A stretch of 64,000 nt of DNA, from the NCBI RefSeq assembly GCF_011207455.1, contig NZ_CP048877.1, forward strand, positions 674,576 to 738,575. Direction: 5' to 3'. The position numbers and the translations under genes were made by a program. How positions within the stretch are numbered: position 1 is the first letter of the stretch; the number at the start of each line of letters is the position of its first letter. This DNA is from Thermosulfuriphilus ammonigenes (GTDB lineage Bacteria > Desulfobacterota > Thermodesulfobacteria > Thermodesulfobacteriales > ST65). A model generated the notes under the pieces. The model was not told where the DNA came from, ran no database searches, and saw only the letters and a list, made by a program, of their open reading frames with translations. Below, in pieces: positions 28,984 to 47,903 of the stretch.

Positions 28984-29370
28984 ATGAAGAGACTTACCAA
29001 GCAACTTAAAGCCCTAGCAGATGGCACCAGGCTCCGGCTTGTAGCCCTTATTTCAACAAGGCCCTGCTGCGTATGTGAGCTGGCCGCAGTTCTTAATCTG
29101 GCCCAACCAACAATTACCAGACATCTCCAAAAACTTACCGAGGCTGGCTTCTTAGAGTATGAAAGACGGGGATTCTTCCAGATCTATCGCCTCTGTCCAG
29201 CCGACCAAAAGGCTAAGGATCTCCTGGCCCTTGTTATCCCCTCTCTATTGGAAGATCCAGAAATAATGGCCCTCCTTGAGAGGTTCCGCCACCTTAATGT
29301 AGGGCCAGCCTTTTTACGAGAGTGCCCTTCAAAACCTGAGGAGGAGAAGAACGGTGAACTGGAGACGTGA
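28984..29370 (+). CDS. arsR: ArsR/SmtB-family metalloregulator
   Basis: This 128-aa winged-helix repressor has the arsenite-sensing cysteine motif as C28, C29 and C31 (RPCCVCELA, compare ELCVCDL) in the helix before the recognition helix, which reads QPTITRHLQKLTEAGFL. The wing YERRGFFQIYRL follows. It should release its operator on binding As(III) or a similar thiophilic metalloid. It is first gene of the arsenic cluster; its 3' end overlaps the permease start by 17 bases. Confidence 0.92.
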   Translation: MKRLTKQLKALADGTRLRLVALISTRPCCVCELAAVLNLAQPTITRHLQKLTEAGFLEYERRGFFQIYRLCPADQKAKDLLALVIPSLLEDPEIMALLERFRHLNVGPAFLRECPSKPEEEKNGELET

Positions 29371-30640
29371 GACCTTCAGAATTCTCCTGGGAACAGCAAT
29401 TTTTCTATTCTTTTTCTATTTTCCCCTTAAAGAAAGGGTCTTATCAGGGGCCAGGGAGGCCCTTCTACTCACCCACTGGTATGCCCGGGAGCACGTCATC
29501 TTTTGCCTTATCCCAGCCTTTTTTATCGCCGGGGCCATAAGTGTCTTTGTGTCCAAGGAATCCGTCATGCGCTACCTGGGGCCTGCCGCCCCCAAGCCGG
29601 TGGCCTATGGGGTAGCCGCTGTCTCGGGGACAATCCTGGCCGTTTGTTCCTGCACCATCCTTCCGCTCTTTGCCGGTATTTATATGAACGGTGCCGGCCT
29701 CGGGCCAGCGACCACCTTTCTTTATTCGGGGCCAGCCATAAATGTATTGGCCATTGTCCTTACGGCCCGTATCCTCGGTGCGGATATTGGCATTAGTCGG
29801 GCCCTGGGGGCCATCGTAGCCAGCATCATCATCGGGCTCATCATGGCCTTTATCTTCCGCCGAGAGGAGCAAGCGAGGCTATCCCAATTTGGTAGTGAAG
29901 ACATCCCCCAGGGACGGCCCCTTTGGCAAAACGTCCTTTTTATGGCCACCCTGGTGGCCATTCTGGTGTTTGCCACCTGGGGAAAGGGCACCGGAGTATG
30001 GGCTGAGATTTACCGCCTTAAGTGGCCACTGGTGGCCCTGGCAGCCCTGAGCCTGCTGGCAGAACTTAAGGCCTTCTTCGGCGTAAGGCTTCCCTGGCTT
30101 CTGGCTACAGCAGCGGTAGTAACCGTGGGGGAGATCCTTTTCCCAGGGCATGAAGTCTCGTTTCTTACCGGGGTGTTTGTCCTCTCTCTGGCCCTTTATT
30201 CAACCGGCGGTGAGGCCCGCACTTGGCTTGAATCCTCCTATGTCCTTGGCCGACAGATTCTGCCCCTTCTTTTCTTCGGTGTTTTAGCTGCCGGCTTCTT
30301 TTTGGGAAGGCCAGGGCATGAGGGCTTTATTCCCTCCAACCTGGTGGCTGATCTTGTTGGCGGAAATTCCTTTGCCGCCAATTTTTTTGCCTCAATTTCC
30401 GGGGCCTTCATGTATTTTGCCACCCTGACCGAAGTGCCCATTCTTCAGGGTCTACTGGGGGCCGGCATGGGTAAAGGGCCAGCCCTGGCCCTTCTTCTGG
30501 CCGGACCAGCGGTCTCCCTTCCCAGTATGCTCGTCATCCGCTCGGTAATAGGGGTCAGGAAGACCGCTGCCTACGTGGTCATAGTAATAGCCATCTCCAC
30601 CCTCTGCGGTTTCATCTACGGTTTGATCTCCGGAGGCTAA
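29354..30640 (+). CDS. COG0701/DUF318-family permease (ArsP-like)
   Basis: This 428-aa membrane protein has about ten helices. Two related halves are visible, with conserved PAAPKPVAYGVAAVSGTILAVCSCTILPLFAGIY (SCS/CSC-T region) near residue 75 and the paired segments FLYSGPAINVLAIVL and ALLLAGPAVSLPSMLVI. The family includes ArsP, an organoarsenical exporter, and permeases tied to other metals. Coupling to ArsR and arsenate reductase supports an arsenic or metalloid role, which is inference. The double-cysteine CSC in a membrane helix may bind the substrate. Confidence 0.88.
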   Translation: MNWRRETFRILLGTAIFLFFFYFPLKERVLSGAREALLLTHWYAREHVIFCLIPAFFIAGAISVFVSKESVMRYLGPAAPKPVAYGVAAVSGTILAVCSCTILPLFAGIYMNGAGLGPATTFLYSGPAINVLAIVLTARILGADIGISRALGAIVASIIIGLIMAFIFRREEQARLSQFGSEDIPQGRPLWQNVLFMATLVAILVFATWGKGTGVWAEIYRLKWPLVALAALSLLAELKAFFGVRLPWLLATAAVVTVGEILFPGHEVSFLTGVFVLSLALYSTGGEARTWLESSYVLGRQILPLLFFGVLAAGFFLGRPGHEGFIPSNLVADLVGGNSFAANFFASISGAFMYFATLTEVPILQGLLGAGMGKGPALALLLAGPAVSLPSMLVIRSVIGVRKTAAYVVIVIAISTLCGFIYGLISGG

Positions 30641-30936: not shown

Positions 30937-31344
30937 TTGAAGCCTGAAGTGCTTTTTCTGTGTACCGAGAATGCCTGCCGATCCCAGTTGGCCGAGGCCC
31001 TGGCCAACCACTTCTTCGGCACAAAGGTGAAGGCCTTCTCGGCCGGAGTGCGTCCCAGAGGGGTGCATCCCCTGGCCCAAAAAGTCCTTGAGGAAGTGGG
31101 AATCGATGTCTCCGCCTTAAGGAGTAAGCATCTTGACGAGTTTTCAGGAAAGACCTTTGACCTGGTAGTCACTCTCTGCGATTCGGCTGCGGCCGAGTGC
31201 CCGGTCTTTCCCGGGGCCAAAAGAAGGCTCCATCTTCCTTTTCCTGATCCGGCAAAGTCTGGAGACGTAGAATCCTTCCGGGAGGTTCGGGACCAGATAC
31301 TTCAGAAGTTAAAAGATCTTTTTGATGAGGAGAAAAGAAGATGA
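30937..31344 (+). CDS. arsC: Arsenate reductase, low-molecular-weight phosphatase type
   Basis: This 135-aa thioredoxin-coupled ArsC has the phosphatase P-loop CX5R as C9 to R15 ([11 protein letters not shown]) and the later redox-cysteine segment [16 protein letters not shown] with two cysteines needed for the disulfide cascade. [11 protein letters not shown] closes the active site. It reduces As(V) to As(III), which ACR3 then exports. The start is TTG with a GGTTAAGGAGG site. It follows the small thioredoxin by 16 bases. Confidence 0.92.
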
Positions 31345-32393
31345 AGCGTCCAAGACTCGGATTTTTCGAACGTTACCTTACCCTCTGGATATTTTTAGCT
31401 ATGGTCTTTGGTGTGCTCCTTGGGAAGTTCGTACCTCAGACGGCCCAGTTTCTGGAGCGCTTTCAGGTGGGGACCACCTCCATCCCCATCGCCATCGGCC
31501 TCATCCTGATGATGTATCCGCCGCTGGCCAAAGTCCGCTATGAAGAACTTCCCATCGTCTTCTCCAACAAGCGGATGCTGGCCCTCTCCCTCATCCAGAA
31601 CTGGGTGGTGGGACCGCTCGTCATGTTTGTGCTGGCGGTGCTCCTTCTTCCGGATCACCCAGACTACATGATGGGAGTTATTCTGGTAGGCCTTGCCCGA
31701 TGCATTGCCATGGTCCTGGTGTGGAATGATCTTGCCGATGGCGACCGGGATCTGGCCGCTGGCCTGGTGGCCTTTAATGCCATCTTCCAGGTCTTAACCT
31801 ATTCTCTCTATGCCTATCTCTTTCTCTATGTCATGCCCTCCTTTTTGGGTCTTAAGGGAGTGGTCGTAAAGGTCTCCATGCTGGAGGTGGCCAAGTCGGT
31901 CTTCATATATCTGGGAATTCCCTTTCTGGCCGGCCTGATTACCAACCAGATTCTGCGTCGCACAAGGGGCGACTCTTGGTACTTTACTCGATTTGTCCCC
32001 CGGGTCTCCTGGCTTACCCCCATCGCCCTCCTCTTCACCATTGTGGTAATGTTTTCCCTCAAGGGCCAATTTATCGTAGACCTTCCGGTGCACGTTCTTC
32101 GGGTGGCTCTTCCCTATGTGGGTTACTTCTTCTTCATGTGGTTTGTAACCTTTTTTATCGCCTACCGGATGAAGATCTCTTACCCCAAGACCGTGGCCGT
32201 CTCCTTTACGGCGGCCAGCAACGACTTTGAGCTGGCCATCGCCGTAGCGGTAGCGGTCTTTGGGCTTAAGTCCGGTCAGGCCTTTGCCACGGTAATTGGT
32301 CCTTTAGTAGAGGTCCCCATCCTTATTTCCCTGGTCAACGTGGCCTGGTACTTCCGGAGGAGGCTTTTCGGTGAAGTGCCCAAACCTGCTTAA
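31341..32393 (+). CDS. acr3: ACR3-family arsenite efflux permease
   Basis: This 350-aa transporter has ten predicted membrane helices. Family motifs are visible: [11 protein letters not shown] near residue 30, [14 protein letters not shown] near 55, [18 protein letters not shown] (conserved Cys of helix 4) near 115, and [20 protein letters not shown] near 293. It exports As(III) from the cytoplasm. Its ATG overlaps the stop of arsC by four bases (ATGA). It completes a sense-reduce-export arsenic cassette. Confidence 0.95.
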
Positions 32394-33738
32394 GATATTA
32401 TTCATTTTGGCTCTTTCCATAATCTGGGCTTCTCCGGGCCTCGCCGACTCTCCGTTAACCTTGGATAAGGCCCTAAGAGAAGCCCTCAAACGCAATCCAG
32501 AAATCTTAGCCCGCAAATATGAAGTGGCCGCCTCCAAGGAGAGATACCGGGCCGAACGCGGGAAACTCTTTCCCCAGGTCAACTTCATAGCTCAGGCTAG
32601 CCGGCTAAGTGATGCTCAGGCGGTAGTTCCTATTAAAGGGCCCGGGCCCTTTCCGGCCTTTAGCCGAGATCGCTATTTCTTTAATCTGGAAACCCTTCTT
32701 CCCATTTATGAAGGTGGAAGGCTGCGCCGAAGGGCAAAAATCGCTGAGCTGGCTATCGCCTTTAAAGAAGGCCTGAGCCGACAAACAGCCCTGGATCTTC
32801 TAGCCAACGTCAAAGATACTTTTTATTTAGCCCTCTACCTTGAAGCCCTGGTTTCGGCCCGAGAAAAAACGCTAGCCGCTCTTAAAGACCAGGAAAAAGA
32901 GGCTGAGCTGAGGCTAAAAGTGGGCCGCATCCCGCCCCTTGACCTCATGCGCATAAGAACCCAGGTGCGGGCTGAAGAGGCCGCGCTTTCAGCCGCCAAA
33001 GAAGCCCTCCGGCGAGCCAAAGAGGCTCTCAGTGTTCTCCTCGGGGAGCCTCCCAGAAGCGACTTCAGGGTGGCCGGGACGCTTGAGATCAAAAAATTAA
33101 AACTCCAAAAAATAGACATTGAGGAGGCCCTCTCCTGTCGGCCAGATATCTTTGCCCAAAGGCAGGCCGTCCGGCAGGCTCAAGAAGAAATCAAGCTTGC
33201 CTCTGGAGAACATCTGCCAAGCCTTGATCTCTTTGCCGATTACGGCCGAAGGGCCGGCTCCGGGCTCAACGATTCCGAGGAGGTCTGGGAGGCCGGAGTG
33301 CGACTCAGGCTCAACATCTTTAGCGGAGGGACCATTTCGGCCCGGGTGGCCGAGGCCCGCTCCCGGGCCCTGGCCGAAAGGGAACGCTTAAGGCTCCTTG
33401 AACTTTCGGCCCGGCGGGAGATCGCTGACGCCCTCTCCCTCATTGCTCAGGCCGAAGAAGAAGTGGCCCATTTTGAGGCCGCCAGGGCCACCGCTAAAGA
33501 GGCCTTCCGCGTAGAGAGCCTCAAATACCGCACCGGAGCCGGCACGGTGACCGACATGCTTCTGGCCCAGGCGGCCTGGGCCCAGGCCGAGGCCGACTAC
33601 CTCGGGGCCCGCTACCGCCTGGCCAAGGCCTACGTGGCCTACGAGCGGGCCACCACCCTCATCGCCCGCGGCTGGCTGAAACTTGAGTGTTGGTCCACCG
33701 CAAAATTTGAAGGCAAGAATTCGAAGGCGGAGAAATAA
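32371..33738 (+). CDS. TolC-type outer-membrane efflux protein
   Basis: This 455-aa outer-membrane channel subunit begins with a signal peptide (about residues 1-24, ending PGLA) and has two TolC repeats, one from [19 protein letters not shown] and one from [25 protein letters not shown]. It includes the beta segment [23 protein letters not shown] and its partner [22 protein letters not shown]. Long alpha-helical coiled parts are evident. A GTG start overlaps the 3' end of acr3 by 23 bases, with GGAGGAGG upstream. It is the first component of a tripartite pump with the MFP and RND genes. Confidence 0.92.
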
Positions 33739-34019: not shown

Positions 34020-35129
34020 ATGAAGAAAATTAAGATCCTTTTGGTCTTGCTCATAGCGGCCGTGGTGGTGGCCCTGGCCGTCCACCTGGTAAAAAAGAAA
34101 AAGGAGGCCCTGGCCAAGCTCCCGCCCCCGAAGGTCGTCCCCCTCCCGGTGGAGGTAGCCAAAGTAAAGTGGGGAAAATTGGCCGTTACCGAACACTATC
34201 TGGGAGAGATAAAACCCGTACTTGGAGCCAAGATCAGCTCCCGCATCTCGGGCTACCTCCTTGCGGTGACTAAATATGAAGGAGACCGGGTAAAAAAGGG
34301 AGAACTCCTGGCAAGGATCGATGATAAGCCCATTAGGGCCCGGATCTCGGCCCTTAAGGCCCAGATAGAAGCCGCCCAAACGAGTTTCCTTACCAAAAAG
34401 CGCATCTTTGAGCGTGACCGCATCCTTTACGAGAATAAGGCCATCTCCAAGGAGGCCTTTGAAATCTCAGAAGCCGCCTTCAAGGAGGCCAAGGCCCGGC
34501 TTAAGACCCTGGAGGCTGAACTTTCCGCCGCCAAAAACGACCTTTCCTACACCGTGATCAGAGCTCCCTTTAGCGGGGTGGTAACGGCCCGGCTCAAGGA
34601 ACCCGGAGAGCTGGCCCTTCCCGGAGTCCCCATCCTGGCCCTGGAGGAACCGACCAAAGGCTACCGGGTGTTCGTTCGTGTGCCCCAGACCAAGGCGGCC
34701 TCTTTCAGGCCCGGGGCCAGGGCCCTGCTCACCGAAGGGGAAAAGCGGCTTTCAGCAAGTATCTTTCGGGTGCACCCGGCGGTGGGGCCCGGGGAACTGG
34801 CCACAGTGGAGATCAGGCTTCCCAGCCGCCCCTTTGGGCTCCCTTCCGGAGCAAGGGTAGGCGTGGACCTTACGCTCAAAGAAGCGGAAGGGGCCATCGT
34901 CCCCTTAAGGGCCCTTCTTGAGAATGCAAACGAAACTTACGTCTTACGGGTAAAACCCGAAAAAGACGGCCTGGGAGAAATTGAAGCCGTAAAAGTCGAA
35001 CTCCTTGGCCGTTCAGGAGAGGAGGTCGCCCTGTCCGGCCCTCTCTCTAAGGGTGATCTCGTAGTGGTGGCCGAGGAATCCACCCTCCTCAGACTCCACC
35101 AAGGGGAGAAAGTGCGGCTGGAAAATTAG
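34020..35129 (+). CDS. RND efflux periplasmic adaptor (HlyD/MFP family)
   Basis: This 369-aa adaptor has an N-terminal membrane anchor (ILLVLLIAAVVVALAVHLV, residues 5-23), a biotinyl-lipoyl half motif SSRISGYLLAVTKYEGDRVKKGELLARID around 75-105, an alpha-hairpin (ALKAQIEAAQTSFLTKKRIF), and the second lipoyl half DLSYTVIRAPFSGVVTARL around 178-196. A membrane-proximal domain follows. It bridges the RND pump to the TolC-type channel. It has a GGAGGGG site. A toxin-antitoxin pair separates it from its RND partner. Confidence 0.92.
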   Translation: MKKIKILLVLLIAAVVVALAVHLVKKKKEALAKLPPPKVVPLPVEVAKVKWGKLAVTEHYLGEIKPVLGAKISSRISGYLLAVTKYEGDRVKKGELLARIDDKPIRARISALKAQIEAAQTSFLTKKRIFERDRILYENKAISKEAFEISEAAFKEAKARLKTLEAELSAAKNDLSYTVIRAPFSGVVTARLKEPGELALPGVPILALEEPTKGYRVFVRVPQTKAASFRPGARALLTEGEKRLSASIFRVHPAVGPGELATVEIRLPSRPFGLPSGARVGVDLTLKEAEGAIVPLRALLENANETYVLRVKPEKDGLGEIEAVKVELLGRSGEEVALSGPLSKGDLVVVAEESTLLRLHQGEKVRLEN

Positions 35130-35169: not shown

Positions 35170-35397
35170 ATGCTGGCCAAGCTTTCGGCTAAAAACCAGA
35201 TTACCATTCCCAAGAAGATTCTGGAGAAGCTTCCCCCAGTCAAATATTTCGAAATATCTCTGGAAGACGGGGTCATCGTTTTGCGCCCTATCCCGGAAAA
35301 TTCTCTGAGCCTTACTGAAATCCGGAAAAAAATGAAAAAACTCGGAATCACCGAAGAGACGGTGGCTGAGGCCATAAAATGGGCCAGAAAAAGATAA
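35170..35397 (+). CDS. AbrB/MazE-type antitoxin
   Basis: This 75-aa swapped-hairpin DNA-binding protein starts MLAKLSAKNQITIPKKILEK, the usual AbrB/MazE N-terminus, with a C-terminal helical tail (LTEIRKKMKKLGITEETVAEAI) that would bind and block the toxin. It has a strong AGGAGGAA site. It overlaps the PIN-domain gene by 19 bases, the standard antitoxin-first order. DNA binding to its own promoter is expected for the family. Confidence 0.85.
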   Translation: MLAKLSAKNQITIPKKILEKLPPVKYFEISLEDGVIVLRPIPENSLSLTEIRKKMKKLGITEETVAEAIKWARKR

Positions 35398-35810
35398 TCC
35401 GCGTAGTACTCGACACCAACGTAGTGGTCTCGGCCCTTCTTTTTGGAGGAACACCCGGGGAGTTGGTTTTTTGGTGGAAAAAAAGGCGCATAATCCCCCT
35501 TCTTTCAAAGGAAATATTAGACGATTACCTACGAGTGCTTGCTTATCCCAAATTTGAACTCACCAAAGAAGAAATCCTCTTCCTAATTACCAGGGAGATC
35601 CTTCCCTGGTTTGAAGTCGTGGAGAATATCACGGATAAAACCTCCTACGTCCCCGAAGACCCTGAAGACGACAAGTTTTTGCGTTGTGCCGTTTCCGGAA
35701 AGGCTGATTACCTGGTGAGCGGAGACCAGCATCTTTTAAAGCTCTCGGCCCCTCCGGTACCCGTCCTTTCGGTGCAGGAATTTTTAAGGCGACTCAAGGA
35801 GAAGTCATGA
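35379..35810 (+). CDS. PIN-domain toxin (VapC-like ribonuclease)
   Basis: This 143-aa PIN nuclease of the COG1569 type has its first catalytic Asp in VLDTNVVVSALLFGG at about residue 12, a conserved Glu in LSKEILDDYLRVL, and two further acidic residues in PEDPEDDKFLRCAVSGKADYLVSGD. All four catalytic acidic positions appear intact. Its stop overlaps the RND pump start by four bases, so transcription of the toxin and the pump are tied together. Confidence 0.87.
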   Translation: MGQKKIIRVVLDTNVVVSALLFGGTPGELVFWWKKRRIIPLLSKEILDDYLRVLAYPKFELTKEEILFLITREILPWFEVVENITDKTSYVPEDPEDDKFLRCAVSGKADYLVSGDQHLLKLSAPPVPVLSVQEFLRRLKEKS

Positions 35811-38800
35811 GTTTTGTAGAGCGTTATTTAAAAAATCCTTATCTCATTACTTCGCTTATCATCCTGGGCGTGGTCCTGGGGTTTCTTTCCTTCCGGGAGA
35901 TGCCCTTAAACCTATTTCCCGACGCCAACTACCCGAAGATCGCTGTGGTCCTGGTCTGGCCCGGGGCCTCGGCCGAAGACGTGGAAGATAAAGTGGCCCG
36001 TCGGGTGGAAAAGGAGCTCGCCACCCTTGACCTGGTGCGCAAAGTCCAGTCCTCCTCGCGGGACGAAGTGGCGGCGGTTTCCGTAGAGTTTGAATACGAA
36101 AAGGGCCTTGATTCGGCAGAAGTCGACGTCTCCGCCGCTCTTAACCGCATCTGGGCCTCCCTCCCCAAGGGGCTTCTTCCCGCACGCATCTTCCGGGTAA
36201 GCGACGCCACGGCCCCGGTCTGTACCCTTGCGGTCTATCCCAAACCCGGAGCACCCCTTGATCTGGCCAAGGTACGCCAGCTTGCCGACAACGAGCTCCG
36301 GGAGGCCCTCCTGCGCATCCCGGAAGTGGCCCAGGTGGAGGTCTTCGGGGGGTATTTCCCGGAAGTACGCCTTGAGGTGGACCGTGACAAACTTGCCCGC
36401 TACGGTCTTAACCTCTCCCAGGTCATCTCGGCCATCTACGCCGAAAATCTTAATATCCCGGGGGGGCTTCTTATCCGGAGCCACGACCAGATCCTCATTA
36501 AGGTAGCCGGCGAAAGGCTTGAAAAACAAAAACTCCTTGACCTGGTGGTGGCCCGCACCAAAAACGGCGAGATCCACCTGCGGGATATCGCCCGCCTTAA
36601 GACCCTTTACGCCGAAAGGGAGAGCCTCTTTCACGGAAACGGGAGACCGGCCATCGGCATCAACATCCTGCGCCCGGAAAAGGGCCACGTGACGGTAACC
36701 CTGGCCGGTCTCCACCGGGAACTTCCCAAGATCAAAAAAATGTTCCCTGAGCTCTCTTTTGAGGTGGCGGACACTCAGGAAAACCTCATCCGCACCTCCA
36801 TCTCCAACATGATCGACGCCTTAAGGGACGCGGTGGTCCTCACTGTAGGCGTGATTTTCATCATCCTTGCCCGCTGGCGGATGACGCTTCTTGCTGCCAT
36901 CTCTATCCCCTTCACCTATTTCATGACCTTTTTCGGGATGAGGCTCCTTGGCTTTGAGCTTAATATTGTGACTCTCACCGCCGTGATCGTGGCCGTGGGG
37001 CTTCTCCTTGACGACGCCATCGTGGTCATCGAAAACATCGACCGCCACCATCACCTGGGAAAGCCCCCTTTTCAGGCCGCCGTGGACGGGACAAAGGAGA
37101 TCTGGCTTGCGGATTTCGCCGGCACCATCACCACCGTGGCCGTGCTGGTGCCCATTCTTTTCATCGGGGGCTACGTGGAGAAGATCCTAAGGCAGTTTGC
37201 CTCAGTTCTCATCTTAGCCCTTCTTTCTTCCTATGTGGTCTCGATTACCGTGATCCCGCTTCTCTCTCAAAAGATCCTTAGAGGAGATGCCCGCCGGAAC
37301 GCCTTTGAACGCCTGCTCTATCGCGTAAGTGAAGGAATCCTTGAGCCTTTGAGAAACTTCTTCGTGGCCCTCTTTGACTTTGCGGTGACCAAAAGGCTTC
37401 TTTTCATCGGGCCTCTGGGGATAGGTCTTCTGGTCTTGAGCCTTAAGCAGATGCCCCTGGTGGGCAAGGACCTCATGCCCCCCATGGACACAGGGATCAT
37501 CAAGATCTCTTTTGAGACCGAGGCCAACACCTCCCTTGCCCAGACAGAAAAGATCGTGAACCAGATGGAAGAGATCATACGCGAGACCCCGGGTTTTATC
37601 CGTATGGCCACCATGGTGGGAAGCGAGCCCGGGGTGATCAGCTTCGGGGCGGAGAGGACCCCTCAGCAGGGGCTCATCACCGTCCATTTCATAGACCGCT
37701 TCCACCGCAAGGAGACCATCTGGCAGATCGAAGAGGAGCTTAGAGAAAAGTTCCTGCGTATCCCGGGACTCAGGTACGTGCACGTCTATGACTTTGGCGC
37801 CACCCCACTTTCTTCCATCGCCGCTCCGGTGGACGTTATGATCAGCGGGCCGGACCCAAAAGTACTCGATCGTCTGGCCGAAGAGGTAAAGACAAGACTT
37901 TACAAAGTCCGGGGGCTGGTCTCCATCTCCCGCAACTGGACGTTAGAGAAGAGAGAAATCGAACTCGTACTCAACCTGGAAAAGCTTGCCCGTTATAAAG
38001 TCTCTCCCCTTGAACTTGCCAGCACCGTGCGTGCGGCCTTCAGCGGCGCGGCGGCCTCAGTGCTAAGGGTGCCGGGGGAAGACGGCTACGTGATAAGGGT
38101 GCGCTTTCCAGAAGGAGAAAGGCGGACGCTCTCTGATCTTAAGACCTTAAAGATCCCCACCCCTGAGGGCCCTGTTCCTTTAAATGAACTTGCCACCTTC
38201 CAGGAGGTAAGGACCCTTACCGTCTATAAGCGCCAGGGGCTCTCCCCGGTGGTGGACGTCCTGGGTTACCGCTACACCACGGCCATCACCCACCTTCAGG
38301 GGCAGGTGAACCGGCTCCTGGCTGACCTCCCCCTTCCTCCGGGCTACCGCATAAGCCAGGAGGGGGAAAGCAAACACATGGGAGAGTCTTTTAGCCGCCT
38401 CAAAAAAGCCCTGATCTTGGCCCTGGTACTCCTCTACTTCTCCCTGGTGCCCACTTTCAAGTCGTTCTTAGATCCCTTGACCATTATGGTTGCCATACCG
38501 CTTTCCCTTATCGGGGCGGTCTGGGGACTTTTGATCGTGGGGCGGCACTTCTGTATGCCGGCGGCCATGGGGATGATCCTTCTGGCAGGAATCGTGGTCA
38601 ATAACTCCATCCTGCTTATCGACTTCATCAAAAGAGCCCGGGCCGAGGGCAAGGGCCGGCGGGAGGCCATCGAAGGAGCCATCAGGATCAGGACCCGCCC
38701 CATCATCATGACCGCCATGGGGACCATTACCGGCATGCTTCCCATCGCCGCCGAAAGGGCCTTAGGGCTTGAAAGGCTCTCGCCGCTTGCGGTGGTGGCC

Positions 38801-38911
38801 ATTGGTGGTCTTTTGGTGGCCACCCTCCTCACCTTGCTTTACGTGCCGCTCTTTTACACGCTTTTTGAGGATTTGAAAAAGAAAATAAGGAGAATAAGGG
38901 GGAATCAGTGA
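35807..38911 (+). CDS. RND-family efflux pump (AcrB-like inner-membrane transporter)
   Basis: This 1034-aa proton-driven transporter has the standard two-fold layout: helix 1 (LITSLIILGVVLGFLSF), a large periplasmic domain, helices 2-6 around residues 335-480, helix 7 near 530, a second periplasmic domain, and helices 8-12 at the end. The proton-relay acidic pair occurs in VGLLLDDAIVVIENIDRHHH (about residue 398-418), as in HAE-type pumps. The second half has GIVVNNSILLIDFIKRAR. Substrate is not deducible. Together with the TolC-type and MFP genes it forms one tripartite pump. Confidence 0.93.
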   Translation: MSFVERYLKNPYLITSLIILGVVLGFLSFREMPLNLFPDANYPKIAVVLVWPGASAEDVEDKVARRVEKELATLDLVRKVQSSSRDEVAAVSVEFEYEKGLDSAEVDVSAALNRIWASLPKGLLPARIFRVSDATAPVCTLAVYPKPGAPLDLAKVRQLADNELREALLRIPEVAQVEVFGGYFPEVRLEVDRDKLARYGLNLSQVISAIYAENLNIPGGLLIRSHDQILIKVAGERLEKQKLLDLVVARTKNGEIHLRDIARLKTLYAERESLFHGNGRPAIGINILRPEKGHVTVTLAGLHRELPKIKKMFPELSFEVADTQENLIRTSISNMIDALRDAVVLTVGVIFIILARWRMTLLAAISIPFTYFMTFFGMRLLGFELNIVTLTAVIVAVGLLLDDAIVVIENIDRHHHLGKPPFQAAVDGTKEIWLADFAGTITTVAVLVPILFIGGYVEKILRQFASVLILALLSSYVVSITVIPLLSQKILRGDARRNAFERLLYRVSEGILEPLRNFFVALFDFAVTKRLLFIGPLGIGLLVLSLKQMPLVGKDLMPPMDTGIIKISFETEANTSLAQTEKIVNQMEEIIRETPGFIRMATMVGSEPGVISFGAERTPQQGLITVHFIDRFHRKETIWQIEEELREKFLRIPGLRYVHVYDFGATPLSSIAAPVDVMISGPDPKVLDRLAEEVKTRLYKVRGLVSISRNWTLEKREIELVLNLEKLARYKVSPLELASTVRAAFSGAAASVLRVPGEDGYVIRVRFPEGERRTLSDLKTLKIPTPEGPVPLNELATFQEVRTLTVYKRQGLSPVVDVLGYRYTTAITHLQGQVNRLLADLPLPPGYRISQEGESKHMGESFSRLKKALILALVLLYFSLVPTFKSFLDPLTIMVAIPLSLIGAVWGLLIVGRHFCMPAAMGMILLAGIVVNNSILLIDFIKRARAEGKGRREAIEGAIRIRTRPIIMTAMGTITGMLPIAAERALGLERLSPLAVVAIGGLLVATLLTLLYVPLFYTLFEDLKKKIRRIRGNQ

Positions 38912-38968: not shown

Positions 38969-41380
38969 ATGAAGCTTAGATTATCTTTATTTTTGTTCCT
39001 TTTGTTTTTTTCTCCCTCCCTTGTTTTGGCCTTTCAATTTACCCCTCAAGTGGAAAAGCGATCTCTTCGCGAACAAAAAGTAAGAAAGTTCTTTTCCGTC
39101 TGCCCTCCCTTTTATTTAAGGGACGAAAAGGGGCAGATAATCGATCCGGTCCATAACAAGAACGCTGATGAGCCCTACAGCCCCAAAAAGACCTGTGGTC
39201 AATGTCACGACTACCAGCATATTACGAGCGCCTATCATTTTGAGCAGGGACGGCACGAAAAAATCCCTTCCTGGATGAAGGAGCGCTATCCCTGGGTCAA
39301 AAGTCCTGGCCAATATGGAGGCCGCTGGTGAAGTCCGGCTCCCCTTTTCCCGCAGTTGGCGGAAAAAAAGAATTCTTCAGCCAAAGAAATTGATCTTACC
39401 TCTTTTAAATTCGTGTTGGCTTGCGGGAAATGCCATCCTGGGGGTGGCCCTCTGGAGACGGACAGAGAAGGCCATCGATACGACAAATATATGCAGGAAA
39501 AGGGCTTGGTCTCCGGAGGGGTCAACGGCTTTGACGGGGATTATTACAAGGCCCACTGGGATAAGACGGGGGTTATAGAAGCCGATTGTCTTATCTGCCA
39601 CTTACCGGGATACCACTATGAAGAAAGAAATAAACAGATCAAGCTTTTAAATTTCCGTTGGGCGGCTACCGCAGGTGCGGGTTTAGGTCAAATTGTTGGT
39701 GCAGTAAAGGAAGGGACTTCTCCTCGCGTGGTTTATAATCTTCGCTTCTTTGACGCCAAAGGTCGGGTCAAACTGCATTTTGTAAAGGAAGTCCCCCGAG
39801 AAAATTGTCTCTTCTGCCACAAAGAAAGCGATTACAAGAAAAGAGGGGCCAGTTATAAGGCAAGGGACGACGTCCACACGCGGGCCGGGCTTAGATGTGT
39901 GGATTGTCACTGGGCCGGGAGCCGGGCCCGAGACCGAAGGATTGCCGGTCTAGAACTTCATGAAATAGGCAAAGGAGATGATCCGGGAGGCCACGTAAGG
40001 GATGATCTAGACAATACGGTAAGGCCGTGCCTTGATTGCCACGGAAAGGGCCTTCACGGAGCCCCCAAAGCCCTGCACCGTGGTCTTCCTCCGCGGCATT
40101 TGGAAAAATTGGCCTGTCAAACCTGCCACGTACCTTACCGGGCGGTCAAAGCGGCGCTTCTGCAGGACTCTACTCACTTTAATCCGGCTCCAGGCATTTC
40201 CCCTCCCCCTAAAAGGATTTGGACCTTTTATGGGCCCGACGCCAAACCTTGGAATTATTACGGAGAACTCCACCAGGAGGGGACCAAATTCCAGAGACCG
40301 TTTTTATATATCCCTGAAAAGGTCTGGTACAAAGGAAAAATTTGGCCCATGAACCGGGTGCACAGTGCCTGGGTTGGGTTCATCAAGCCGGGCCTTCCGG
40401 GCATTGATATGGTCTTTATGGTGGATTATTTCCGGATGTGGAAAGAACACCTTGCTGATCCCCAGAAGAATTTTCCCGCCTTAAACGAAATAAGAGACGA
40501 TAATCTAGACGGTGTGCCCGAAGTAAATAGGCCCGAAGAAATAAAGGCCCTCCTAAAAGAGGTCAAACGTTATCTTGAGCTTAAGGGAAAGTTCCCGAAA
40601 AAAGCCAGGCTCGTATTCGTCAAAGACGCCGCGTATACCGAAGACGGGAAAAACTGGACCCATCTCAAACACTTCCCCTGGGAGGCCACCCCTTACGCTT
40701 CGGTCTTTAAGTACTCCCATGATATTTATCCGGCTAAAGCGGCCCTCAGGAGCGAAGGGTGTGCAGATTGTCATAGTGGCCGTTCCCCCTTCTTTTATCG
40801 TCCGGTCCTTACTTCTCTGTGGGACGGACAGGGGAAGCTCTCTTTTAGACCGAATTACGAAATCCTTGGTTACTCCGCCTGGGCGGTAAAAGCCCTCACC
40901 TGGCGGCAAGAGGTACTTGAGCCGGTGATGTACTATGGGCTCCTTCTATTTTTCTTCGTTGTCGGCTTAAGCCTCGTCTTTTACGGACCACACTTAAAAA
41001 TAAACGATACCTCTCTTTCCCAGCGCCTAGCCTTTCTGATCTTGACCGTGGCGCTTCTTGGCCCGGCCTTAAGCGTTATCCTGGGCGGGTTTTTCGCCGC
41101 CTCTACTTTGGGCCACCTGGCTTCCCTTCACAAAGTGGTGGGGATTTTATGCGGACTGGCGGCCCTTTATCTCTTCTTTTCTCCAGGCCGAAAGGGCCTT
41201 CTTTTTGCCCTGGGAGCCTTACTCATCCTTTACCAAATCTTGACCGGAGCAGGGCTTTTCTTTTTACAGGGTGGTAATCTTCGCCAAATTATTTTTACCC
41301 TGCACGACCTCGGCGCCTTGCTCACGCTGGCCTGGGCCGGGGTGGTGCTCTTAGTTAATTCCTTTTGGAGGATAAAATGA
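38969..41380 (+). CDS. Membrane octaheme c-type cytochrome, candidate selenoprotein (in-frame UGA, U121)
   Basis: Read through a TGA at 39329-39331, this is one 803-aa protein. A signal peptide (residues 1-21) is followed by eight CxxCH heme sites at about residues 76, 152, 207, 280, 310, 354, 383 and 598, then five C-terminal membrane helices from about residue 645. The UGA lies in GQYGGRW-U121-SPAPLFPQL, between heme sites 1 and 2, and the frame continues without shift. Without read-through the product would be a monoheme fragment and a leaderless 674-aa remainder lacking export. A 9-pair hairpin with loop AGTTG starts 23 bases after the UGA. The role is probably electron transfer between the quinone pool and periplasmic or extracellular acceptors. 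The TSUP permease start overlaps its stop. Confidence 0.78.
39345..39367 (+). other. SECIS-like hairpin in the cytochrome gene
   Basis: CCGC (39350-39353) pairs with GCGG (39359-39362) around loop AGTTG, and after one C-A mismatch TTTT pairs with AAAA. The loop begins at the 23rd base past the UGA and has G in its second position, as in characterised bacterial SECIS elements. Confidence 0.6.
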
Positions 41381-42123
41381 CCAAGTCTCTCACCATCATG
41401 ACGGCTGGACTTTTCGGTCTGGCCTTTATCTCCGGGATGCTGGGGTTGGGGGTGGCCTTTGCTGCGGTACCCTTTCTCTCCTTCTTTCTTCCGGACCTGG
41501 TCAACCAGGTCCAGCCCCTGACCCTTTTTCTAAACGGGCTCACGGCCCTTTTTGCCACCTTCGGGTTTGCGAGAAGCGGCTACGTGGAGTGGAAAAAGGC
41601 CATCCCTCTTGCCGTAGTCACCACCGCCGCGGCGCCGGTGGGGGCCTTTCTCACCCGGTTTATCCCGGTAATGGTCATCTGGGTGGCCTACCTCCTTTCG
41701 GTAAGCTATCTGGCCTACCGGCTCTTTAAGCCCGTAAAAGGCGAGGAGGGCCGCAAAGAAAATTTTAAACTGGCCCTTATTTTGGCGGTTCCCATCTCGG
41801 TGCTCGCCGGTTTTCTGGGCATCGGCCCGGGATTCCTCCTTATGCCCACCCTCATTCTTTTGGGGTTTGAGCCCAAGAAGGCCGCGGGAATCAATGCCTT
41901 TGCCGTAACCCCGCCTTCTTTTTCGGCCCTGATCCCCCACCTCAGCACCGCTAAGTGGGACCCGGTCTTAACGGCCTCTTTGATTGGTGCAGGGGTGGTG
42001 GGAGCCTTTCTCGGGGCGCGCTTCACCAGCCTCTACGTCCCCAGCAACCGCCTGAAACAGCTTTTCGGCCTGCTTATCGTGGTGATGACGGCTTACAAGA
42101 TTTACACCCTTTTAGGAGGTTAG
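41377..42123 (+). CDS. TSUP-family (TauE/SafE) permease
   Basis: This 248-aa membrane protein has about eight helices and the repeated family motif seen in MLGLGVAFAAVPFLSFFLPDL near the N-terminus and again as GFLGIGPGFLLMPTLILLGFEPKKAAGINAFAVTP at about 150-185. TSUP proteins move sulfite, sulfoacetate, thiosulfate or similar anions. I place the start at ATG 41377 with GGAGGA five bases before it; this overlaps the cytochrome stop (ATGA). Coupling to a membrane cytochrome suggests a sulfur-compound role, which is inference. Confidence 0.88.
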   Translation: MTKSLTIMTAGLFGLAFISGMLGLGVAFAAVPFLSFFLPDLVNQVQPLTLFLNGLTALFATFGFARSGYVEWKKAIPLAVVTTAAAPVGAFLTRFIPVMVIWVAYLLSVSYLAYRLFKPVKGEEGRKENFKLALILAVPISVLAGFLGIGPGFLLMPTLILLGFEPKKAAGINAFAVTPPSFSALIPHLSTAKWDPVLTASLIGAGVVGAFLGARFTSLYVPSNRLKQLFGLLIVVMTAYKIYTLLGG

Positions 42124-42125
42124 CT

Positions 42126-42863
42126 ATGAAGCATGTCTGGGCCATATTTTTTATCGCTTTCTTTATCGCAACCCCGGCCCTGGCTGGGGAGGGGGCTACG
42201 GACAATTCTCCGGATTGGTTTTTTCCCAAATGGGCGGCCGAAGCCCCTAATAACAAGCCCATTAAGGTGCTTGATACTGAGGCTCCGCTGGGGCGTTACG
42301 CCCTGAAGACCAAGGAGATCGGGCTTAAGGACCTGGCCCGCATCCACGGCCACCTCTGCGACGGGCTGGCCTTTGCCTTCGTAGCCATAAGAGAGGCCCT
42401 CTTAAAGCTCTTTCCTAACGGAGTGGTGGACCGGACGGACATAAGGGTGGTCACCAGAAATAGCCCCTGCTTTGTGGACGCCGCTACCCTTATGACCAGG
42501 GCCCGGATCAACTTCATGACCGTGAGGGTGGATAACTCCCTGGGCTGGGAATTCATCGTCCAGAAAATCTCTACGGGAGAGGCCTACCGGGTAAGGCTTA
42601 AATCGGGCTTCATTCCCCGGGATTTTGAAGAGATCGAAAAAGAAATCAGGGCCCGGCGCAAGAAGGGGCTTCCGGTCTCCGCCAAAGAGATTGACCACTA
42701 CGAGGAGCTTCTTTCGGCCTTTATCCGCAAGCTCCTCTATACTCCGCCTGAATGGTTCATTATCGTTGAGCGGCTCCCCCACTATGAGTTCCGCTTCCTG
42801 GATCTTTTGGCCCCGCGTGGAGACATTATCAATAAAAACGTGCCAATGGGAATTCATTCCTAA
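42126..42863 (+). CDS. Exported FmdE-family protein
   Basis: This 245-aa protein has a clear signal peptide (MKHVWAIFFIAFFIATPALA) and an FmdE domain. The domain is named after formylmethanofuran dehydrogenase subunit E and shows IHGHLCDGLAFAFVAIREAL (metal-type His/Cys site) at about residues 73-92, NSPCFVDAATLMTRAR at about 113-128, and FRV-type later strands. Secreted FmdE proteins are not dehydrogenase subunits; a metal-binding or sensing role outside the cytoplasm is inferred. Start is ATG 42126, two bases after the TSUP stop, with AGGAGG. Confidence 0.82.
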   Translation: MKHVWAIFFIAFFIATPALAGEGATDNSPDWFFPKWAAEAPNNKPIKVLDTEAPLGRYALKTKEIGLKDLARIHGHLCDGLAFAFVAIREALLKLFPNGVVDRTDIRVVTRNSPCFVDAATLMTRARINFMTVRVDNSLGWEFIVQKISTGEAYRVRLKSGFIPRDFEEIEKEIRARRKKGLPVSAKEIDHYEELLSAFIRKLLYTPPEWFIIVERLPHYEFRFLDLLAPRGDIINKNVPMGIHS

Positions 42864-44399: not shown

Positions 44400-45251
44400 A
44401 TGTGGCGGAAGATTCGAACTCTTCTTGAAATGATCAAATTTGAACACACCATCTTTGCCCTTCCCTTTGCCTTCATGGGAGCCGTGCTGGCCGCACGCGG
44501 CATCCCCGAAGCCAGGACTTCTCTCCTTATCCTGGGGGCTATGGTAGGGGCCAGGACTGCGGCTATGGCCTTTAATCGCCTGGTAGATTTATCCTTTGAT
44601 GCCGCCAATCCCCGGACTCAAAACCGTCCTCTGGTAACCGGAGAAGTCAGACCGGGTGAAACCTGGGCCATGATCCTTATCGCCTCAGCCCTTTTCTTCT
44701 TCTGTGCCTGGCGCCTTAACTCCTTGACCCTAAAGCTTTCACCCCTTGCCCTGGCTATTCTCCTGGCCTATTCCTACACCAAGCGGTTTACCTGGCTTTG
44801 CCACGTCTTTCTGGGGCTGGCCATCGGTCTGTCTCCTCTTGCCGGTTGGATAGCCGTCACCGGAGCCTTCTCCTGGGAGCCCGCCATCCTTTCTCTGGGG
44901 GTGATGTTCTGGGTGGCTGGTTTTGACATTCTTTATGCCTGCCTTGATGAAGAGTTTGACCGAAAGGTGGGGCTTTATTCCATTCCGGCCCGTTTTGGCC
45001 GTCGGAGAGCCTTTGCCATCTCTGCCTTATTCCACTCTCTGGCCTTTGGCCTCTTTGTTCTGGTGGGGCTGTTGCTTTCGCTGGGCTGGATATATTATCT
45101 CGGATTGACTGTCACCCTGGGGCTTTTTATTGCCCAGAGGGTAGTCATATCACCGGATGATCTCTCAAAAATGGACCTTTCCTTCTTTACCTTCAACGGG
45201 GCTATCAGCGTGGTAATGTTTTTAGCTACTGTTTTTTCCCTCATCTTTTGA
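44400..45251 (+). CDS. mqnP: UbiA-type prenyltransferase (MqnP-like)
   Basis: This 283-aa membrane enzyme adds a polyprenyl chain to an aromatic acid. Two Asp-rich sites are visible: NRLVDLSFDAANPRTQNRPL at about residues 60-79 (NDxxDxxxD-type) and YACLDEEFDRKVGLYSIPARFG near 181-202 (DxxxD). Around eight helices fill the rest. With a futalosine menaquinone cluster elsewhere in this window and no ubiquinone genes, the likely substrate is 1,4-dihydroxy-6-naphthoate. Its 3' end overlaps the convergent kinase gene by 30 bases. Confidence 0.88.
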   Translation: MWRKIRTLLEMIKFEHTIFALPFAFMGAVLAARGIPEARTSLLILGAMVGARTAAMAFNRLVDLSFDAANPRTQNRPLVTGEVRPGETWAMILIASALFFFCAWRLNSLTLKLSPLALAILLAYSYTKRFTWLCHVFLGLAIGLSPLAGWIAVTGAFSWEPAILSLGVMFWVAGFDILYACLDEEFDRKVGLYSIPARFGRRRAFAISALFHSLAFGLFVLVGLLLSLGWIYYLGLTVTLGLFIAQRVVISPDDLSKMDLSFFTFNGAISVVMFLATVFSLIF

Positions 45252-47903
45252 GATCAGGAGCTCCTTGAGGACCTCCGTCAGTTCATTCAGGCGGTAGGGT
45301 TTGTTAAGAATGGCCTGGAAGCCGTAGCGCTGATAATCATTCATAATAGGGTCACTGGAGTAGCCGCTGGATACAACCACCTTGGCCTTTGGATCTATCT
45401 GGAGAAGTTTGGCAACGGCCTCCTTTCCCCCCATACCTCCAGGAATGGTTAGATCCATAATCACCAGGTCAAAGCCCTGATCACGGTCCCTGGCTTGGGC
45501 GTAAAGTTCAAGGGCCTCCCGTCCTTCCCGGGCAAAGGCCACCTCACAGCCAAGCAGTCTGAGCATCTCCCCCAGAGTCTCCCTTACCAAATCTTCATCA
45601 TCCATAACCAGCACCCGGGCCCTTATCTCAGGGGAGATCAGACGACTCTCTTCCGGGGCATTTAGAACCTGGCCTCCACTGGCCGGAAGAAAGAGATAAA
45701 AGACTGTCCCCTCTCCTGGCTCTGACTCCACGGTAATATGGCCGCCGTGGCGCCTTATTACGGAAAAACAAGTAGCCAGCCCCAGGCCACTGCCACCAGG
45801 TTTGCTGGTAAAGAAAGGATCAAAAATCCGAGGAAGAATATCCTCCGGAATGCCCACCCCTTCATCCCTGATGGAGACCTTGACGTAACGCCCCGGAGAA
45901 AGGGGAAGACCTGCTTCAGGGGTAATGTGAACATTTTCGGCCGAAATCTCGAGAACACCTCCGTCAGGCATGGCCTCCACAGCGTTTATAACCAAGTTGT
46001 TGATGACAATGCCCATCTGATCCTCATCCACCTCTGCCGGCCAAAGCTGTTTGGGAAACTTGAAGCGGGGAACTACCCGGGAACCCCTCAGGGCAAAAGT
46101 GGTAGTCTCGGTAATCAGATCTGCCAGAGAGACTATCTTTTTAACCGGGGAGTCTTCTTTAGTGAAGGCCAGCAGTCTCTGGGCCAGGGCTTTTGCCCTC
46201 AATGAGGCCCTCTCGGCCTGATCAAGCAGAGAATAAAGAGAGCTTTTTTCTCCGGCCCGGAATTTGGCCAGGGAAATGTTCCCCAAGACGGCGGTGAGAA
46301 TGTTGTTGAAATCATGGGCGATACCTCCGGCCAGAACAGCCAGAGACTCAAGCTTACTGGACTTAAGCATTTCCTCCTCAAGCTTTTTCTTCTCCGTGAT
46401 GTCCCGGAAGACCATTACTGCCCCCACAATAAGGCTCTTTCTCTCGTGGATAGGGGAGCAAGTGCCTTCAATGAGCCGTTCCGAGCCGTCTTTTCTAAGC
46501 AGAAACCCTTCTTTTATCTCCACCAGTCTTTTTTCTCGAAGACAGACTCCCACCGGATCAAGGCAGCTATGATTATCCTCCTTAAGGCGAAAAATCTCCC
46601 TTAATGGACGCCCCAGGGCCTCTTTTTCTTCCCAGCCGGTTATTTCCTCGGCTGCTCGATTCATCATCCTTACCAGCCCGGTCTCATCCGTGGACAAGAC
46701 AGCTTCACCAATAGAGGTCATAGTTACCGCCAGGCGCTCCTTTTCGGCCGAAAGTTCGGCCTCGGCCCGTTCTCTTTCCTGAATTTCCTGAAGGAGCTTT
46801 TGGTTGAGGACTTCCAAATGGGCCGTTCTCTCCCGGACCTTTTCTTCCAGATGGTTGCGAGCCAGTTCCACCTGCCTTTTGGCCTCTCTTAGTCGGCGAT
46901 TAAGATTGCCCACGTAGACAGCAATGGCGCTGTTCACCACGGCAAACAGCAGAAGCAGCACCACCCAATACCAGTATTTACGCACGGCCTCTTTAAGGGT
47001 GAAACGGCCCAGGGATTGATATGGACCGATCCGGAGCTCTTTGAGGCACTCATGAACGGGCTGATAATTCTTGGGGATGGTCCAGCCGGCAATCCCGGCG
47101 GCCTTGGCGGCGGGAGACTCTGGAGACATCTTCATCAGGGCAATGGCCACCTGTTCGGCCAGATCGTCGGGGGTCTTTGAGGCCTTGGCAAAAGGCCATT
47201 CAGGATAAAGGCGAGTGCTAACCCTAAAGGGGAAACCGGGGTGTTTTTTGGGGGACAGGATCCGAAAGGTTTTAAGATCTATCTTTCCCTCCTGGGCCAT
47301 GGTCTCCAGGGTATCGGTTCTCACCGTACCGGCATCTACGGCCCCTTCAAGGACCGCATAGACAACCTCGTCATGGGTCTCCAAGAAGACCACCTTTTGG
47401 AAGTCTCTTTGAGGAGAAATCCCCCTTTCTTTAAGCTCACGCCAGGCCATTTGCCAGCCACCGAAAGAGTAGGGATTGACCGCGGCAAAACTCTTTCCCC
47501 GTAAGTCAGAAAGATCTCTGATGTCGAGACGATCAGCCCGACAGAAAATCACCCCTCCAAAGAGGGTGTAGGCTCCACCGTGACGACTGTTTTTAAGGGT
47601 TGCGATCCGGCTGGCCCCGTTTAGGGATTCAAACTCTACATACATGGCCGGATTGGCCAGAATGAAGTCCAACTCATTGTTTTGAACAGCCTCTCTCAGG
47701 GCATAAAAGTTCAGGGGCACCAAGATGAAGCGATACTGAGGCAGAGTTTGGTTGAGATAGGCCACCATGGGGGCCCACCTCTCCAGGGCCTTAAGTTCTC
47801 CTCTTTTGGCCAAAACACCAACTCTTAGGGTTTGGGCCGACGAAGAGGAGATACAAAGAAAGACAGCACCTAAACAAAGAATTAATTTAATAATTTTCTT
47901 CAT
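45222..47903 (-). CDS. PhnD-domain membrane hybrid sensor kinase (TtrS-like architecture)
   Basis: This 893-aa sensor has a signal peptide or anchor (1-24), a PhnD-like periplasmic binding domain at about 25-290 (TLRVGVLAKRGE, ELDFILANPAMYVEFE), a membrane helix near 312-335 (WYWVVLLLLFAVVNSAIAVYV), a coiled coil, and a PAS domain at about 390-505. HisKA follows (AGGIAHDFNNILTAVLGN), then HATPase (NLVINAVEAMPDGG, DEGVGIPEDILPRIF, GSGLGLATCFSV), and a C-terminal receiver (DLVIMDLTIPGGMGG). The same periplasmic fold is used by TtrS for tetrathionate. The ligand here is unknown; a sulfur oxyanion or phosphonate-like anion is possible. Confidence 0.9.
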   Translation of the reverse strand: MKKIIKLILCLGAVFLCISSSSAQTLRVGVLAKRGELKALERWAPMVAYLNQTLPQYRFILVPLNFYALREAVQNNELDFILANPAMYVEFESLNGASRIATLKNSRHGGAYTLFGGVIFCRADRLDIRDLSDLRGKSFAAVNPYSFGGWQMAWRELKERGISPQRDFQKVVFLETHDEVVYAVLEGAVDAGTVRTDTLETMAQEGKIDLKTFRILSPKKHPGFPFRVSTRLYPEWPFAKASKTPDDLAEQVAIALMKMSPESPAAKAAGIAGWTIPKNYQPVHECLKELRIGPYQSLGRFTLKEAVRKYWYWVVLLLLFAVVNSAIAVYVGNLNRRLREAKRQVELARNHLEEKVRERTAHLEVLNQKLLQEIQERERAEAELSAEKERLAVTMTSIGEAVLSTDETGLVRMMNRAAEEITGWEEKEALGRPLREIFRLKEDNHSCLDPVGVCLREKRLVEIKEGFLLRKDGSERLIEGTCSPIHERKSLIVGAVMVFRDITEKKKLEEEMLKSSKLESLAVLAGGIAHDFNNILTAVLGNISLAKFRAGEKSSLYSLLDQAERASLRAKALAQRLLAFTKEDSPVKKIVSLADLITETTTFALRGSRVVPRFKFPKQLWPAEVDEDQMGIVINNLVINAVEAMPDGGVLEISAENVHITPEAGLPLSPGRYVKVSIRDEGVGIPEDILPRIFDPFFTSKPGGSGLGLATCFSVIRRHGGHITVESEPGEGTVFYLFLPASGGQVLNAPEESRLISPEIRARVLVMDDEDLVRETLGEMLRLLGCEVAFAREGREALELYAQARDRDQGFDLVIMDLTIPGGMGGKEAVAKLLQIDPKAKVVVSSGYSSDPIMNDYQRYGFQAILNKPYRLNELTEVLKELLISKDEGKNSS

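Follow-up and report, generated by a model that had tools for sequence, protein, structure and literature searches.

Results

The gene run and the octaheme cytochrome

The window analysed here, the whole stretch of 64,000 nucleotides from Thermosulfuriphilus ammonigenes, contains a run of arsenic-resistance genes on the plus strand that extends from arsR at 28984 to a gene for an FmdE-domain protein at 42126 and near the end of which a multiheme cytochrome is encoded (38969-41380). The run opens with genes for an ArsR/SmtB-family metalloregulator (28984-29370, NF033788 over cut-off), an ArsP-type permease (29354-30640, an ORF matching PF03773), a thioredoxin-type, ArsC-like arsenate reductase (30937-31344, TIGR02691 with E 1.5e-32, below the cut-off) and an ACR3 arsenite efflux transporter (31341-32393, TIGR00832 at 444 bits, cut-off 283). 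These are followed by ORFs for a TolC-like outer-membrane efflux protein (32371-33738, shared neighbour cluster c8), an RND membrane-fusion protein or adaptor (34020-35129, cluster c10) and, within the efflux run, a PIN-like protein of 143 residues (35379-35810), all three named by eye. The PIN-like ORF overlaps by 4 bases the start of an RND efflux pump gene (35807-38911), which ends 57 bases upstream of the cytochrome gene. On the other side, the start of a TauE/SafE transporter gene (41377-42123, PF01925) overlaps the cytochrome stop codon (ATGA), and the FmdE-domain protein (42126-42863, PF02663) is the last of the run. Judging from spacing and overlaps, all genes from arsR to the FmdE gene may well form one transcript; a promoter scan stayed at background level and an Rfam scan returned nothing relevant. 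The first-pass annotation of this DNA was silent on the arsR, arsP-type, arsC-like, ACR3 and RND pump genes. A long sensor kinase whose N-terminal part resembles a substrate-binding domain is encoded further downstream on the minus strand (45222-47903); four other loci with homologous cytochromes have relatives of this kinase nearby (cluster c4).

When the sole internal TGA of the frame, codon 121 (39329-39331), is read through, the gene specifies a single octaheme c-type cytochrome of 803 residues that ends at a terminal TGA (41378-41380). Its N terminus resembles a signal peptide. One CXXCH site precedes the UGA (C76GQCH80, 39194-39208) and seven follow it, namely C152GKCH156 (39422-39436) and heme sites 3 to 8 at residues 207, 280, 310, 354, 383 and 598 (39587-40774). 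Codon 121 lies within the motif SPGQYGGRW-U-SPAPLFPQLA, and the tryptic peptide across this residue would be W-U-SPAPLFPQLAEK. The C-terminal ~165 residues (about 637-803, 40877-41377) make up a predicted membrane domain with five long helices in an AlphaFold model, and in an NCBIfam scan of 18 family members the membrane domain of two homologues in the alignment matched formate dehydrogenase gamma (cytochrome b). Translation and structural model thus bear out the initial description of one frame running through the UGA, with one plus seven heme sites and five helices. Annotation without recoding yields two ORFs (38969-39331 and 39356-41380), which fits the earlier expectation of two truncated genes, the second devoid of an export signal.

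An AlphaFold model of residues 44-649 reached a pLDDT of 85.5, confidence being low around Sec121, and a Foldseek search with this model found no solved relative; in a full-length prediction based on 18 sequences the heme domain was poorly modelled. Solved structures gave no match in a single-protein sequence search and weak NrfA-type matches only in a profile search. A plasmid search found no match.

Selenocysteine, cysteine and other residues at column 121

Homologues were sought in 395 genomes of the phylum and the family was found in 78 of them. A single TGA is present in most of the top matches, and even very divergent members have it at the same column, within the motif G(QYG)GxW-U-xP...QLA. 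Across the phylum, 48 distinct Sec sites with TGA at exactly column 121 were collected (49 pattern hits minus one spurious). A TGA is also present at this column in a separate metagenome-assembled genome (L002), the protein of which is 97% identical, and in a paralogue that the window's own genome encodes (L042, at 455514-457886 of the contig); the codon is therefore not a sequencing error. Cysteine occupies the column, with no TGA in the gene, in L014-L020, L022, L023 and L142-L144, and decayed side branches carry serine, glutamine, leucine or other residues. The first-pass annotation had named homologues lacking both cysteine and selenocysteine as evidence against recoding; such homologues do exist, in some side branches only, while TGA or a cysteine codon is found elsewhere. 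Given the related Ser/Gln/Leu clade, selenocysteine or cysteine appears dispensable in some family members. A quick tree of 52 members, in which some forks are open, requires Sec status to have changed at least five times and places the Cys clade L142-L144 among Sec rows.

The search also brought up more distant architectures. L050 and L053 are 16-heme proteins that combine the Sec domain of this family with a second, OTR-like octaheme domain. A large unnamed branch of Sec cytochromes (L063, L066, L068, L070-L078, L150-L164) shows the motif U-PPSYRQLA together with a hairpin, many of its members being about 1000-1480 residues long.

A covarying SECIS hairpin

A candidate SECIS hairpin follows the UGA at 39345-39366 (plus strand), with an upper stem CCGC/GCGG of 4 bp that carries the loop AGUUG (stem and loop 39350-39362), a bulged C39349 and a lower stem UUUU/AAAA. 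Its loop begins on the 23rd base past the UGA (22 nt between), exactly as first reported. In bacterial SECIS elements, the loop is expected 16-37 nt from the UGA, with a G in loop position 1 or 2 and an upper stem no shorter than 4 bp, and the hairpin of the window conforms in all three respects. The published model includes a free-energy limit of -7.5 kcal/mol (PMC13188914); the values obtained here are about -6.8 kcal/mol for the local stretch, a little above this limit, and -10.6 for 62 nt. The fold of the 62 bases from the UGA scores z = 0.38 against shuffles, and many random TGAs within the window are followed by an equally good hairpin. Taken alone, the hairpin of the window is statistically unremarkable, and the case rests on the comparison of homologues. 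The geometry originally described is there, but in a single sequence it does not count as evidence.

At 44 of the 48 distinct Sec sites the hairpin has the register NCGCC-AGUU-GGCGN, as such or in a covarying form, and the group of four that includes the window has CCGC-AGUUG-GCGG. The distance from UGA to loop is 16 or 22 bases, and distance and loop fit the published model (PMC13188914). Among 23 distinct sequences, 99.1% of the pair cells of the stem are standard and in 14 cells both partners have changed; 500 shuffles never reached both values and every slid register scored lower. The hairpin overlaps the Gln-Leu-Ala codons, and Gln-Leu is written CAG-TTG at 34 of 34 Sec sites versus 2 of 54 occurrences elsewhere in the same proteins; the hairpin evidently forces these codons on the Gln-Leu pair. 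Most Cys homologues lack the hairpin, and those that share the QLA residues spell Gln-Leu as CAGCTT or CAACTG. Exceptions are L142-L144 (Cys, TGT), in which the hairpin is intact, and the Ser copies L044 and L045 (TCA, one base off TGA), which keep an eight-pair hairpin; these elements look like fossils of a lost selenocysteine.

Selenocysteine machinery

The complete 2.29 Mb genome encodes selA, selB, selC and selD, the tRNA-Sec having the anticodon TCA, so that an absence of selB and selC, which would have spoken against recoding, is excluded. The selD gene (L132, G000 C1:748881-749804) has one internal TGA and is itself probably a selenoprotein gene. A selB gene scoring over cut-off was found in 63 of the 64 family-bearing genomes checked, Cys bearers included; the cysteine forms are therefore not explained by lost decoding, and loss of selB as the cause of the Sec-to-Cys change was rejected. 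TGA/Cys exchange, the covarying hairpin and the presence of selA, selB, selC and selD together support the original assignment of selenocysteine to residue 121, and we conclude from sequence comparison that UGA codon 121 almost certainly encodes selenocysteine.

Linkage to arsenic-resistance genes

Genes for ArsP, ACR3, ArsC-like proteins, ArsR, thioredoxin, DsbD and arsenite methyltransferase (ArsM) recur around the homologues, and linkage of the cytochrome family to ars genes is thus a repeated feature. Of the 25 genomes that have a close homologue, 12 have ACR3 at most 7 kb from the cytochrome, three of these 12 (G346, G418, G422) containing only ACR3 pieces below cut-off, and two others have it at a distance of 11-14 kb; in the remaining genomes it resides on another contig or is absent. 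ACR3 is usually present once per genome; the number expected by chance (14 kb of roughly 2.5 Mb) is far below one; the linked genomes are not independent, though several taxonomic families are represented. No ars gene was found among the scanned neighbours of the paralogue L042, which include a distant TauE and a PF03601 (YeiH-type) protein, and the divergent Sec clade L024-L031 shows no ACR3 link, ACR3 being located on other contigs where present.

Discussion

In the NCBIfam scan no model passed for the cytochrome, the nearest being TIGR04314 with 32 bits and TIGR04315, octaheme tetrathionate reductase (OTR, PDB 1SP3), with 31 bits, and for the 18 members scanned the matches were for the most part to weak relatives. 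The cytochrome shares with OTR the eight CXXCH hemes, of which hemes 4-8 can be profile-aligned (E 5e-25), and a selenocysteine or cysteine between hemes 1 and 2. It nevertheless falls far below the TIGR04315 cut-off of 375 bits, differs in spacing and motif (GGRW-U-SPAP..QLA as opposed to NNF-U/C in OTR) and possesses, unlike OTR, an extra five-helix membrane domain and an ars context. Profile alignment places the invariant K291 on Lys153 of OTR, which Mowat and co-workers are said to have described in 2004 as an unusual ligand of the catalytic heme. Of three MAFFT modes, one alone puts Sec121 on Cys64 of OTR, and hhalign does not. By sequence, the cytochrome is a remote relative of OTR and not a member of that family, and it perhaps works like OTR. 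OTR-family proteins of the phylum often carry a TGA themselves: 31 matches to TIGR04315 over cut-off have one internal TGA each (among them L088, L092, L093, L098, L099, L104, L106 and L109), and in the sequences that were read this codon falls on Cys64 of 1SP3.

Other known cytochromes are less close. MmcA-type multiheme cytochromes of methanogenesis (TIGR04314, cut-off 250 bits) show weak profile similarity over hemes 3-7, yet the 32 bits obtained lie well short of that family. The diheme TsdA thiosulfate dehydrogenases/tetrathionate reductases differ in heme number, but offer with their sulfur (Cys)-ligated active heme a model for the role of the selenocysteine. ExtKL of Geobacter (NF040886), for which a role in metalloid (selenite) reduction has been suggested (PMC5877670), is likewise a multiheme cytochrome with an in-frame selenocysteine; its five hemes and the C-terminal context of its selenocysteine (HAIPDG-U-PTPNR) set it apart. 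Identity with ExtKL was rejected, as NF040886 (cut-off 250 bits) is not among the models that the NCBIfam scan listed for the cytochrome at E<=1e-3, and the Sec context differs. The genome from which the window is taken does encode two ExtKL-type Sec cytochromes with one internal TGA each (L082 and L083, G000 C1:1755392-1756651 and 242440-243597). Since ExtKL-type and OTR-type Sec cytochromes have already been catalogued (PMC13188914), the initial statement that selenocysteine is unusual for a c-type cytochrome needs qualification. Literature searches found no description of the present family; relative to the literature searched, the family, its membrane domain, the ars link and the series of fossil SECIS elements are new, while Sec cytochromes as a kind are known.

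We consider it reasonably probable, on sequence grounds, that the protein is a quinone-linked periplasmic oxidoreductase with selenocysteine at or near the active site. SelB and tRNA-Sec would decode UGA codon 121 under the direction of the hairpin that follows 22 bases later, and the exported octaheme domain would face the periplasm. The membrane domain would carry electrons from the quinone pool to the hemes or the other way, a coupling suggested by the matches of two homologues to formate dehydrogenase gamma. Sec121 may be part of the catalytic heme pocket or lie next to it, close to one heme, where it could take the place of Cys64 in OTR and either attack the substrate as a nucleophile or ligate substrate or heme; in this way it may ligate or tune a redox site, as originally surmised. 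The substrate would be arsenate, thioarsenate or another arsenic or arsenic-sulfur compound, which best fits the neighbouring genes, with sulfur oxyanions as the next choice. A Sec-dependent periplasmic oxidoreductase acting on arsenic or arsenic-sulfur compounds is the explanation that we favour as a whole and regard as fairly likely to hold; for an arsenic-related substrate, which is suggested by genomic context, the chances are about even. The narrower proposal of an undescribed selenoenzyme class that performs quinone-coupled periplasmic redox chemistry on arsenic-sulfur species, for instance thioarsenate reduction, is speculative and rather unlikely in this precise form. Thioarsenates are described as common in sulfidic geothermal water (PMC5509915).

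The same Sec octaheme cytochrome could instead act on a sulfur oxyanion such as tetrathionate, thiosulfate, sulfite or polythionates, its ars neighbours being incidental or sharing a metalloid/sulfide regulator. OTR as the nearest characterised relative by profile points in this direction, as do the TauE/SafE genes that adjoin the cytochrome gene in the window, L113 and L123, the position of paralogue L042 near TauE and PF03601 genes and the His/Cys-ligated active heme of TsdA tetrathionate reductases (PMC5146829). The repeated occurrence of a usually single ACR3 gene nearby in several taxonomic families, together with ArsC-like, ArsP and ArsM genes, speaks against it, and we consider a sulfur oxyanion substrate somewhat unlikely. 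Still less probable is a genuine selenoprotein that serves as a non-catalytic electron conduit or a metal-binding stress protein, in which the selenocysteine would bind metalloid or protect heme. Selenocysteine has been proposed as a possible metal ligand in other metal-resistance selenoproteins (PMC13188914), and serine or glutamine at the column in some homologues would be compatible with such a role; however, Sec or Cys and the adjacent invariant residues are strongly maintained, and a high protein mass per heme, as seen here, has been described as characteristic of catalytic cytochromes (PMC7096707). That there is no selenocysteine at all, the frame being broken by a true nonsense mutation or consisting of two genes, can be claimed on the basis of the stop codon and the unremarkable isolated hairpin, but is scarcely credible in view of TGA at the same position in dozens of genomes, its replacement by cysteine, the covarying hairpin, the codon lock, the complete Sec machinery and a downstream piece that would be left without an export signal.

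Heme proteins are rare among selenoproteins, and the family of this almost certain selenoprotein is widespread in the phylum. Its genes would normally be split by annotation; no NCBIfam model scores over cut-off and the family could not be recognised in the census of prokaryotic selenoproteins from 2026. Nature offers one multiheme enzyme in Sec, Cys and Ser form, some Cys and Ser forms with fossil SECIS elements, so that what selenium contributes at a heme site becomes directly testable. For a heat-loving bacterium of the sulfur cycle, a UGA read as selenocysteine beside arsenic-resistance genes suggests selenium chemistry on arsenic or arsenic-sulfur compounds and points to a reaction of arsenic metabolism outside the known ars genes. 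If the narrower proposal above were true, an undescribed class of selenoenzymes would link selenium, arsenic and sulfur metabolism in bacteria of sulfidic hydrothermal environments.
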